A DNA stretch of 64,000 nucleotides, taken from the NCBI GenBank assembly GCA_004379135.1, contig NBNI01000005.1:62001-126000 (forward strand), given 5' to 3'. Both the position numbers and the translations under genes were made by a program. Below are positions 41,696 to 56,050 of this stretch, one piece after another. Position 1 is the first letter of the stretch, and every line of letters begins with the position of its first letter. Source of the stretch: Acidimicrobiales bacterium mtb01. GTDB taxonomy: Bacteria > Actinomycetota > Acidimicrobiia > Acidimicrobiales > Ilumatobacteraceae. Under the pieces are notes generated by a model that was given only the letters and a program-made list of their open reading frames with translations, had not been told where the DNA came from and did no database searches.

Positions 41696-42715
41696 TCAGG
41701 AGTGGGCGCGTTTGCGGGCGGCCAGACCGGCCAGGCATTCGAACGCCAGTCGGTGCGCCACGTTCACGGTGAGCTCGCTCACGTCGTACGCCGGAGCGAC
41801 TTCCACGATGTCGATGCCCACCACGTCGTGTTCGAGGCACAGCGTGCGCACCATGCGCAACAAGTCGGCCGACACGATGCCGCCGGGTTCGGGAGTACCG
41901 GTTCCCGGTGCGTACGACGGGTCGAGGCTGTCGATGTCTATGGAGATGTAGAGCTTGTCGGCCGACGCGAGAGCCTGATCGATCGCCTCGCGCATCACCG
42001 TCTGGAATCCGCGCTCCCAGATGTCGTGCATCGTGAACCACTGCATGCCCTGCGCGGCCATCCAGTCGAACACGTCCTTGGGTGGCCAGTATCCACGCAG
42101 GCCCACCTGGACGAAATGCGAACCGGGGATGGCGCCGCTCTCGATGAGGCGGCGCATGGGCGTGCCATGGCTCGCGAGGTTGCCGGCGATGATGTCGGCG
42201 GTGTCGGCGTGGGCGTCGAAGTGCACCATGCCCACGTTCCCGTAACCGTGCGCGGCCGCGACAGCAGTGGCCGACGGCCACGTGATGGAGTGGTCGCCAC
42301 CGAGCACCAGCGGGATGATGCGGCGGTTCGCGACCTCGGCGATGCGGGCCTTGATGTTGGCGTGGCTCAACTCGGTGAGTCCGTGCGGGCAGTAGGCGTC
42401 GCCGAAGTCGACGACTTCGAGCCAATCGAAGATCTCGATGCCGAGATCCATGTGATACGTGCCCGGTTCGTAGGCCTGCGCGCGAATCGCTCGCGGACCG
42501 AATCGCGCGCCGGGACGATTCGACGTGGAGTTGTCGAATGGAGCACCCACGATGGCCACGTCGGGTTGCCAGGTGTCGAGGTCGGACGGTTCGGTCAGGA
42601 ACGGGCGCTGGCCGAACGTGGAGAGGCCCCCGAAGCTGTAGCCGAGGTCGAGTTGCTCGCGGAGTCCGTCGGGAAGCTCGCGACGCGGAGTGTCGCGTCC
42701 GTCGGCTGAAGCCAT
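41696..42715 (-). CDS. speB: Agmatinase/arginase family ureohydrolase
   Basis: A 339-residue ureohydrolase with the binuclear manganese ligands in VLGGDHSITWP, VHFDAHADTAD and YISIDIDSLDPSYAPGTGTPEPGG, and N-terminal FGPRAIRAQAYEPGTYHMDLG. This variant with GGLSTFGQRPF resembles agmatinase and guanidinobutyrase, so the exact guanidino substrate is open. ATG 42715 is supported by a TAGCGT box 7 nt upstream; an ATG at 42733 is also in frame. Confidence 0.88.
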   Translation of the reverse strand: MASADGRDTPRRELPDGLREQLDLGYSFGGLSTFGQRPFLTEPSDLDTWQPDVAIVGAPFDNSTSNRPGARFGPRAIRAQAYEPGTYHMDLGIEIFDWLEVVDFGDAYCPHGLTELSHANIKARIAEVANRRIIPLVLGGDHSITWPSATAVAAAHGYGNVGMVHFDAHADTADIIAGNLASHGTPMRRLIESGAIPGSHFVQVGLRGYWPPKDVFDWMAAQGMQWFTMHDIWERGFQTVMREAIDQALASADKLYISIDIDSLDPSYAPGTGTPEPGGIVSADLLRMVRTLCLEHDVVGIDIVEVAPAYDVSELTVNVAHRLAFECLAGLAARKRAHS

Positions 42716-42722
42716 GCGCGTC

Positions 42723-42728
42723 ACGCTA
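42723..42728 (-). promoter_or_regulatory. Leaderless -10 box of the ureohydrolase gene
   Basis: On the minus strand TAGCGT is followed by 7 nt and the ATG at 42715. Confidence 0.5.
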
Positions 42729-42740
42729 CCCATGCATGAC

Positions 42741-43147
42741 GAAGGCCCCGACGGTGCGGCCAGTCGCCCGGCGCTCCATCGGGGCCTTCAAGGTCGAGGT
42801 CATCCACCAGCGATCGATCGAGGGTTGTTACCCTTCTCTCGCTCACTTGACTCGCCCGTCGGAGTTGCCCCCGGCGGGCGAGTGCCATTTCCAGCCCGGC
42901 CACTCAGTTGCCCATGTGGCGGCGATTCGGTTGCCCGACTCGCCCGATGGAGTTGCCCCCACCCGGTCCGGACGGTCCGATCCGTGTGAACCCGGAAGTT
43001 GCCCTCCGGCCCACCGAACCCACCAGCGCCCACTCGGTTGCCCGAGGGTCGCCCGTGCGAACCTCCCCTTGCCGACCCAGGAGGTCACCCTCGTGGACCG
43101 GCCGATCGAAGATCCGGTTGTGTGCGGCGGGGTTGCCCCCGTCACCC
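42741..43147 (+). ncRNA. Candidate structured RNA: hairpin array with conserved RGTTGCCC loops
   Basis: No convincing reading frame covers this stretch. It opens with an 11-bp perfect stem (42741-42751 with 42779-42789). Then the octamer RGTTGCCC occurs at 42863, 42906, 42929, 42951, 42997, 43036 and 43131. In six of the seven it is exactly the 8-nt loop of a hairpin whose stem sequence differs each time: 13 pairs at 42850-42883, about seven at 42921-42944, three plus three at 42944-42966, five at 42992-43009, three to five at 43030-43048, five at 43026+100 (43126-43143). The copy at 42906 sits in a 12-nt loop over a five-pair stem. A related TTGTTA loop is at 42821-42834. G-U pairs make sense only if the plus strand is transcribed. 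Promoter and 3' end are not resolved. Confidence 0.5.
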
Positions 43148-43443
43148 ACAGGACGTCGATGACCTCTCCCGAGCCGATCGTGTGGCTTTGATCCACTAGA
43201 GGGCCGGAGCCCTGCGCTGGATCTCGTCACCGTTTTCGTCCCGGTGAGAGGACTGTGCCAGTCACGAAAGTCCTGGTCAAGGGATATTTTTGTACTCACA
43301 GGGTTATCCCCGAACTTTCCCGTGAATCCACAGAAATCAGTGATCTATGCACCGCCGATTCACACCGTTGCCCACAGGTCGTCCACAGACTTTCGCGTCT
43401 CCGCGTTGACGCTGCGGGCGGGGGAACGGTTGACTGAGGGGCG
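43148..43443. other. Non-coding region with DnaA-box-like words and AT-rich patch
   Basis: No gene is supported here. An AT-rich patch GATATTTTTGTAC (43283-43295) is followed within 110 bp by TTATCCCCG, AATCCACAG, TTGCCCACA and TCGTCCACA, each near the actinobacterial DnaA box TTGTCCACA. A 7-bp inverted repeat GTGAATC/GATTCAC spans 43322-43363. Possible -35 elements TTGACG (43406) and TTGACT (43430) precede the isoleucine leader peptide, but no clear -10 is paired with them. Confidence 0.35.
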
Positions 43444-43494
43444 ATGAACGCTTCGACTGCTTCCGCCGCTGTTGCGATCATCATTATTCGCTAG
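43444..43494 (+). CDS. Isoleucine leader peptide (attenuator)
   Basis: Sixteen codons and a TAG: Met-Asn-Ala-Ser-Thr-Ala-Ser-Ala-Ala-Val-Ala-Ile-Ile-Ile-Ile-Arg. Four consecutive Ile codons (ATC ATC ATT ATT) sit just before the stop, with a GAGGGG ribosome site before ATG. A hairpin and a rho-independent terminator follow at once, then the citramalate synthase gene. Low isoleucyl-tRNA should stall the ribosome and allow read-through. Too short for automatic callers. Confidence 0.88.
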   Translation: MNASTASAAVAIIIIR

Positions 43495-43517
43495 CGCACG
43501 GGGTCGTCCTCGTGCGC
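43494..43517 (+). promoter_or_regulatory. Isoleucine leader pause hairpin
   Basis: GCGCACG (43494-43500) pairs with CGTGCGC (43511-43517) around loop GGGTCGTCCT. It overlaps the leader stop codon, the usual place for a pause stem in attenuators. Confidence 0.65.
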
Positions 43518-43519
43518 AC

Positions 43520-43549
43520 ACGCCGCCCAGTGGGCGGCGTTTTTGTTTT
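43520..43549 (+). terminator. Attenuator terminator before citramalate synthase
   Basis: CGCCGCCCA-G-TGGGCGGCG (43521-43539) is a perfect GC-rich palindrome followed by TTTTTGTTTT. It lies 26 nt after the leader-peptide stop and 66 nt before the cimA ATG, so termination must be conditional. Confidence 0.9.
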
Positions 43550-43614
43550 CTCGCTCACGAAACGACCGCGACCAACCGATAACCACGACGAAGGAACGAA
43601 AAGGAATCATCGAC

Positions 43615-50936: not shown

Positions 50937-51011
50937 TGGGGAGTGGTGTAACTGGCAACACAGCAGATTCTGGTTCTGTTATTCAGGGTTCGATTCCTTG
51001 CTCCCCAGCCA
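50937..51011 (+). tRNA. tRNA-Gln (anticodon CTG)
   Basis: Cloverleaf: acceptor TGGGGAG/CTCCCCA, anticodon stem GCAGA/TCTGT with loop TTCTGGT (anticodon CTG, codon CAG), T-arm CAGGGTTCGATTCCTTG, discriminator G and an encoded CCA. A TACACT box at 50919 is its likely -10. A rho-independent terminator follows directly. Confidence 0.95.
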
Positions 51012-51096: not shown

Positions 51097-51172
51097 GCTC
51101 CCATCGTCTAGTGGCCTAGGACACCACCCTCTCAAGGTGGCGGCACGGGTTCGAATCCCGTTGGGAGTGCCA
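51097..51172 (+). tRNA. tRNA-Glu (anticodon CTC)
   Basis: Cloverleaf: acceptor GCTCCCA/TGGGAGT (G-U at the end), anticodon stem CCACC/GGTGG with loop CTCTCAA (anticodon CTC, codon GAG), T-arm ACGGGTTCGAATCCCGT, discriminator G, encoded CCA ending at 51172. A TAGCGT box at 51077 may be its -10. The next gene's GTG begins at the very next base. Confidence 0.95.
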
Positions 51173-55889: not shown

Positions 55890-56024
55890 ACGCACCCGTG
55901 CTCCCATCCGGACTCTGACCGTCGGCTCCGGATTTCCACCGGATCGGCCCGGATTCGACATCGCTGCCGATTCCGGGTTCGCGGGCTCTCACCGCCGGTT
56001 GGGACTTTCACCCACACCCCGCAC
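55890..56024 (-). promoter_or_regulatory. FMN riboswitch (RFN element)
   Basis: On the minus strand the conserved RFN blocks appear in order: GCGGGGTGTGGGTGAAAGTC, CCAACCGGCGGTGAGAGCCC, the variable arm, ATCCGGTGGAAATCCGGAGC, CGACGGTCAGAGTCCGGATG and GGAG. It ends about 70 nt before ribD. No T-rich terminator follows; CCGAGC-CT-GCTCGG (about 55871-55881) is a small stem in the expression platform, so control may be at translation. Confidence 0.93.
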
Positions 56025-56050
56025 GAGGTGGTTTCAGTTGTCCGGTCAGC

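Follow-up and report, generated by a model that had tools for sequence, protein, structure and literature searches.

A predicted family of large structured RNAs in Acidimicrobiales, preceded by DnaA-box-like repeats

What kind of element places seven copies of one octamer between two divergent genes? The question arises in a 64,000-nucleotide stretch of the genome of Acidimicrobiales bacterium mtb01, termed here the window, whose first letter is position 1. The octamer RGTTGCCC occurs on its plus strand at 42863, 42906, 42929, 42951, 42997, 43036 and 43131, all inside 276 bp, and the array is flanked by genes for agmatinase (minus strand) and citramalate synthase (plus strand), both named from NCBIfam. 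Counting both strands, the window holds 11 copies versus 2.66 expected, and none of 100 dinucleotide shuffles contains 11 or more. The initial annotation located the seven octamers correctly and read them as the 8-nt loops of plus-strand hairpins. The octamers exist on that strand; the hairpins exist in part, with 12, 0, 2, 3, 5, 3 and 5 immediate closing pairs. The octamer at 42906 thus has no closing pair beside the loop, and several other sites are weak. Nor do the stems share no sequence, as had been stated, given that positions 42849-42872 and 42937-42960 are 92% alike across 24 nt. Lox-like recombination sites, in which 13-bp arms surround an 8-bp core, were rejected because the arms of such sites, not the core, should be constant. 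Two more pairs of RGTTGCCC on contig C1 were inspected and do not form an array; one copy on that contig caps a terminator-like hairpin of its own. The comparisons described below strongly support the assignment of the array to a new family of large structured RNAs in Acidimicrobiales, previously uncatalogued and without an Rfam match at threshold, much as the initial annotation had supposed in proposing a new structured RNA. The RNA to which the array belongs is predicted to be standalone, trans-acting and encoded on the minus strand. Its features are collected in Table 1.

Table 1. Predicted features of the RNA locus, in window coordinates.
Feature	Position	Strand	Basis or detail
DnaA-box-like repeats before promoter	43295-43387	-	GGGGATAACCCTGTGAG (43311-43295), TGTGGGCAA (43376-43368), TGTGGACGA (43387-43379)
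Predicted promoter	43252-43280	-	TTGACC (43280-43275), 17 nt, CACAGT (43257-43252)
Predicted standalone structured RNA gene, ~500 nt	42741-43245	-	promoter, 3' hairpin, fold, homologues
5' strand of predicted long-range helix closing the multi-hairpin domain	43155-43170	-	at least 4 pairs in 37 of 40 folds
Lineage-variable central-domain hairpins	42889-43154	-	six with GCAA tetraloops; together with hairpin 1, the array of the initial annotation
Conserved hairpin 1	42850-42883	-	invariant C.A mismatch, GCAA tip
Second conserved hairpin	42808-42849	-	UAAC-type apical stem-loop; helices 2 and 3
3' strand of predicted long-range helix	42792-42807	-	GUGGAUGACCUCGACC, beginning in conserved GGUGGAU
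3' hairpin, terminator-like	42741-42789	-	GCGA loop, a GNRA loop; helices 4 and 5 of the core
Putative agmatinase -10	42713-42728	-	TAGCGT (42728-42723), 7 nt before ATG (42715-42713); inferred from sequence

The strand of the RNA was examined through its loops and fold energies. On the minus strand, RGTTGCCC reads GGGCAACY, that is, G-G-(GCAA)-C-Y: a GNRA tetraloop closed by a G-C pair and then by a G-C or G-U pair, which explains why the octamer varies at its first base only. All seven octamers form hairpins with a GCAA tip in the minimum-energy fold of this strand, and the variants GAAA, GUAA and GCGA in relatives remain within the GNRA class. The fold energy in the window is -295.2 kcal/mol (z -7.84) for the minus strand and -235.6 kcal/mol (z -3.98) for the plus strand. 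Among 40 full-length homologue folds, the minus-type strand carries 143 GNRA and 64 UNCG loops in 278 tetraloops, versus 5 GNRA and no UNCG in 212 on the opposite strand and 29 GNRA and no UNCG in 271 from shuffles. The fold z is lower on the RNA strand in 32 of the 40 loci and on the opposite strand in the other 8, with medians of -5.6 versus -3.7. The 38 modelled pairs contain 93 G-U against 41 A-C combinations, which favours the minus strand; an invariant C.A column outside these pairs (43/43) shifts the ratio to 93 versus 84, and the count is therefore not relied on. That same column undoes the earlier case for plus-strand RNA, which was built on G-U pairs such as T42859-G42874. On the minus strand this pair is a C.A mismatch, and since 43 of 43 relatives keep it unchanged, neither strand gains any covariation from it. 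A putative plus-strand promoter element, TACCCT at ~42829-42834, was discarded; its bases belong to the conserved UAAC hairpin of the RNA.

The alternative is a plus-strand RNA that would titrate an RNA-binding protein by means of constant 8-nt AGUUGCCC loops set in an array. The octamers themselves, a plus-strand fold z of -4.0 and two U-G pairs present on the plus strand only are in keeping with it. However, GNRA or UNCG loops make up 5 of 212 tetraloops there versus 207 of 278 on the other strand, the loops vary among relatives, and the minus strand is the one indicated by the conserved promoter and the box cluster, so that titration from the plus strand appears extremely improbable. The idea that a constant loop serves as a ligand-binding element, by CsrB-like titration or by loop-loop contact, likewise loses its footing, as the octamer amounts to a GNRA tetraloop plus the pairs that close it and the same hairpin positions in relatives bear GAAA, GUAA, GCGA, UUCG, UCCG or longer tips. 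Comparison among relatives thus makes it very probable that the RNA gene lies on the minus strand and adopts its predicted core fold, the two being judged as a joint claim.

The core fold was assessed by covariation. As the initial annotation had proposed, pairing is kept while sequence varies, with compensatory changes at paired positions in relatives. In the 3' core alignment of 43 rows (alignment A5), 28 of 38 pairs are changed on both sides. Cells with both-side changes number 184 versus 47.6 in shuffles, none of 500 shuffles being as high, and sliding the pairing partners by 1 to 3 columns abolishes the signal; because the alignment was fitted to a model with a structure derived from 12 of the 43 rows, these counts lean towards the model. 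Across the 43 core rows, 96.6% of cells are paired in helix 1 (hairpin 1) and just 69.8% in helix 3. The UAAC-type apical stem-loop of the second conserved hairpin is replaced by AACC(UACG)GGUU in Microthrix-type relatives. Two wrong-strand self-matches in alignment A3 were removed by a stricter E-value. Three loci (L124, L231 and L232) contribute cores to A5 but have no full-length extract, and full-length analyses therefore used 40 of the 43. Comparison thus shows the strand and the conserved 3' core of the predicted RNA.

A long-range helix would close the multi-hairpin domain. When the 5' strand is taken from a fixed window, 12 of 5000 permutations equal the own pairing for the distal 12 nt, and none of 5000 does so with GGUGGAU included (n = 33 distinct). 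When the whole 5' region is searched, 74 of 5000 permutations are as good for the distal strand and 1 of 5000 with GGUGGAU. An additional permutation test gave 0/2000 on 33 loci (27 distinct) whose 5' strand is compact, and it is biased in that its 5' strands came from the loci's own folds. The own strand is the single best in just 0 to 2 of 33 loci, and support for the helix is for this reason graded as moderate rather than strong. Of the 37 folds that have it, 29 pair the 5' end with the stretch preceding the helix. Length variation among homologues resides in the hairpins between hairpin 1 and the 5' domain, which in the window genome constitute the octamer array; the fold of this genome has seven GCAA loops in all. 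At three other loci (L131, L136 and L174) the RNA is 624-664 nt long and rich in GCAA hairpins, frequently CCGG(GCAA)CCGG, an expansion exceeding that of the window. Between families, the tips of hairpin 1 and of the 3' hairpin switch among GCAA, UUCG, UCCG and extended forms, which fits caps that provide stability better than a single constant ligand.

The distribution of the RNA was determined by DNA and covariance-model searches. When 61 genomes, the window's own and 60 relatives, were searched at the DNA level, 10 congeners had clear homologues, and a weak match in another genus (G033) proved syntenic; in all 11 relatives, the RNA lies between agmatinase and citramalate synthase genes. Covariance model R1, built on the 3' core, has full-length matches in 18 of 298 Acidimicrobiales genomes, the own genome included, from several families; these strong matches have E-values up to 1.1e-8, and the weaker matches in 21 of the 39 matched order genomes (E from 2.3e-4) were dropped. 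The search of Acidimicrobiia relatives that the initial annotation had suggested, made with a wider model (R2), returned pairing-conserved members within Acidimicrobiales: 18 strong matches in 296 class genomes, all from this order, after 3 weak ones among 21 were dropped, in a sample that partly holds the same genomes as the order sample. In a phylum sample of 396 genomes, all 9 strong matches are again from Acidimicrobiales; 7 weak matches among 16 (at most 36.3 bits) were dropped. A hairpin-pattern scan of named genomes yielded at least 117 loci. Among those listed, 32 are full-length model matches of at least 83.7 bits, one further match is cut by a contig end (54 bits), and the remainder, at most 37.1 bits, were dropped. 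These 33 matches among the loci listed, several of which are apparently on the same contigs as in other genome samples, carry the names Ilumatobacter, Ilumatobacteraceae, Acidimicrobiaceae, Acidimicrobiales, Acidimicrobiia and Candidatus Microthrix parvicella, with others from unplaced Actinomycetota and one from an "Actinomycetes bacterium". Candidatus Microthrix is a filament former in wastewater. Two viral contigs bearing the hairpin pattern are not members, and phage records gave no model match. By comparison, then, the predicted family is distributed at the level of the order, being found only in Acidimicrobiales in the samples searched. Carriers make up less than half of the order genomes sampled. 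Among 24 genomes of the genus, 11 have a model match and 13, many of them incomplete, have none; 4 of the 7 best-quality genomes have the RNA. The genome searches were sampled and partly filtered, and a missing match is therefore no proof of absence from a genome.

Is the RNA a gene of its own or a part of its neighbours? Where flanking genes could be named, which covers part of the families and excludes f3 and f46, they differ: IclR and ABC-2 genes in one family, an S4-domain gene in another, and enoyl-CoA hydratase and translation-factor GTPase genes near the Microthrix-type loci. Five congeners (G004, G008, G010, G017 and G022) have an agmatinase-citramalate synthase gap of ~240-270 bp without the RNA gene and without the boxes, and they retain both flanking genes and the isoleucine-rich leader of citramalate synthase. 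The differing flanks and the absence of the whole unit from these five congeners argue for a standalone gene, and by this comparison the predicted RNA is independent of neighbouring genes. A cis-acting leader of the agmatinase gene, either a riboswitch or an attenuator, would be suggested by the arrangement in the genus, where the RNA is directly upstream of that gene, is codirectional with it and ends in a terminator-like hairpin. Such a leader is nevertheless very unlikely. The RNA has other neighbours in other families where these are nameable, three loci of the same family (L094, L096 and L100) show citramalate synthase but no agmatinase in the stretch read, and the five congeners above have agmatinase without the RNA. 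In addition, a possible -10 element of the agmatinase gene lies between the 3' hairpin and the ATG, and so the RNA need not be the agmatinase leader. The TANNNT..ATG spacing is alike in most syntenic homologues, and agmatinase is apparently leaderless, with predicted transcription from this -10 downstream of the 3' hairpin. On the other flank, citramalate synthase has a putative isoleucine attenuator of its own (43444-43550), composed of the leader peptide MNASTASAAVAIIIIR and an intrinsic terminator at 43520-43540; its run of Ile codons is kept in relatives, including those that lack the RNA.

The ends of the standalone RNA gene were placed from its promoter and 3' hairpin. TTGACC-17-CANAGT occurs in all 12 syntenic homologues, own genome included. 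Of the 40 full-length loci, 33 have the more general TTGACN-17-CANNNT immediately upstream of the assumed start. In 28 of the 40, those not in the syntenic set, a TTGAC promoter pattern had itself served to place the start, and the promoter is there partly by construction. Better evidence in those 28 loci comes from a fixed upstream box, which does not depend on the start placement, and an A-rich tract, both aligned before the promoter. We infer that transcription begins at ~43245, a 5' end placed from the promoter, and ends at the 42741-42789 hairpin. This hairpin has no U-run in the window, and many relatives have UUUU-type tails. By their predicted ends, the homologous RNAs are 290-780 nt long.

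Upstream of the promoter are repeats of the form TGTGGAYAA, which resemble the consensus of the DnaA box. Within 240 bp upstream of the 40 loci, sites with at most one mismatch have a mean of 2.18, versus 0.024 in 1171 control windows from the same loci. The 87 sites are spread over 38 of the 40 loci, with none at the other two (G318 and G097); 28 loci have at least two, versus 0 of 1171 controls. The loci are related, congeners not being independent, and so the box count does not represent 40 independent cases. Measured from the assumed start, the sites recur near -67, -87, -108, -119, -130 and -142, in steps of one or two helical turns, and, five palindromic second readings aside, they share one orientation. 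Another conserved element, GGATAACCCTGTG, precedes the A-rich tract and TTGACC. Box-like sites at recurrent upstream positions are what a promoter regulated by DnaA would be predicted to have. Their phasing suggests that synthesis of the RNA may be tied to DnaA or to the replication state, a proposal to which we give even chances.

The same repeats could instead mark an element that works as DNA, such as a replication origin or a DnaA-box locus, with the hairpins acting in DNA and no functional transcript. The boxes adjoin the RNA at 38 of 40 loci, and in two other genera of the family (G028 and G024; loci L259 and L260) they occur beside citramalate synthase without a model match, which speaks for such an element. 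The GNRA and UNCG loops and the G-U-tolerant covariation are, however, features of RNA, and the promoter is conserved. An origin was considered in view of a TCCACA cluster at 43300-43390 and rejected, as there is no clear switch of GC skew there and dnaA and some boxes lie elsewhere. GC skew, which is noisy, reaches no minimum at the locus, whether on contig C3 or in the surroundings of the locus in the 4.83-Mb genome; dnaA and the RNA locus are on different contigs. Taken together, these observations make a purely DNA-level element highly improbable and favour the minus-strand RNA gene. Besides dnaA, a short segment of contig C7 (2201-2449, locus L026) also matches the DnaA ATPase family (33.5 bits).

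Our studies allow a tentative model of the RNA. Its fold would comprise three parts: a 5' domain, a central domain of several helices that the long-range helix closes, and the 3' hairpin. The octamers would be the tips of GNRA-capped peripheral hairpins that have multiplied in Ilumatobacteraceae, the family of the window. Alone or with proteins, the RNA may form a compact particle; the hairpin tips would serve mainly as caps that lend stability, and some of the GNRA type would dock into helices. Such an architectural RNA or ribonucleoprotein is the mechanism we favour, though we hold to it only tentatively. A new class of large RNAs under direct DnaA control, in which an RNA or RNP particle that grows by adding GNRA-capped hairpins couples the replication state to cell physiology in Acidimicrobiales, is a bolder extension that we regard as rather unlikely. 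The novelty concerns the RNA family. Outside the housekeeping RNAs, large structured RNAs are uncommon, and every one so far has raised a new question. The present RNA combines a core backed by covariation, a promoter rich in DnaA-box-like sites, a size range of 290-780 nt and natural absences in close relatives, and its role can thus be tested by comparing carriers with noncarriers.

How does the RNA compare with known systems? At gathering scores, Rfam 15 finds in the window and six relatives just tRNA and FMN matches elsewhere and no family over the RNA, in agreement with the novelty that the initial annotation had asked to be checked in this way. The window's share of these comprises two plus-strand tRNA genes (50937-51008 and 51097-51169) and an FMN riboswitch aptamer on the minus strand (55892-56030). 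With a relaxed E-value, the window stretch and nine relatives gave solely sub-threshold matches, and those overlapping the RNA were F6, sR035 and BjrC80, with SrbA in one relative (L102). F6 TB sRNA (RF01791) resembles the RNA over its 3' hairpin alone, at 20.8 bits versus a gathering score of 46 (E 0.57); SrbA scores 20.5 bits versus 69. These two matches, as well as sR035 and BjrC80 in the window stretch, are taken as chance. RNase P is found elsewhere in 4 of 4 genomes, and this identity was rejected. Open-licence PMC literature contained no noncoding RNA of Ilumatobacter and no report linking DnaA boxes, noncoding RNA and Actinobacteria; for structured RNA in Acidimicrobiia, the literature listed concerns HelD, and broader literature of this kind gave nothing relevant among the matches listed.

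One close comparison is with Ms1, scr3559 and 6S RNA, which are also standalone structured RNAs of a few hundred nucleotides in Actinobacteria (PMC9130861, PMC11077062). An RNA-polymerase-binding RNA of the Ms1 or 6S type that has diverged would share with the new RNA its standalone nature, structure and similar length, and divergence beyond recognition has a precedent: PMC9130861 reports that Streptomyces Ms1 has no detectable sequence similarity to mycobacterial Ms1. The 6S model (RF00013) matches in 0 of 7 carrier genomes, as such divergence would allow; it detects just 5 of 14 control genomes, however, and its absence in carriers is therefore weak evidence. The predicted multi-helix architecture differs from that of Ms1, scr3559 and 6S RNA, as do the neighbours where named. 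The HAD-IB hydrolase that adjoins Ms1 is absent among the named flanks, which cover part of the families, and agmatinase and citramalate synthase take its place in the window. The main text of PMC9130861 does not contain "Acidimicrob". We consider kinship with Ms1 or 6S RNA improbable and prefer the separate family. OLE, ROOL and GOLLD are likewise large, standalone bacterial RNAs with many helices, as described in PMC12286853. The new RNA differs from them in having no Rfam match to them, a predicted length of 290-780 nt, a distribution limited to Acidimicrobiales in the samples and no match in phage records. A sponge of the CsrB type also has several like-tipped hairpins in one RNA. A protein-binding loop of that kind would be expected to stay constant in relatives, whereas RGTTGCCC ranges from 1 to 7 copies across 12 homologues and the loops exchange: the tips of the new RNA are GNRA caps that alternate with UNCG caps in relatives, and they lie on the strand opposite to that of the titration proposal.
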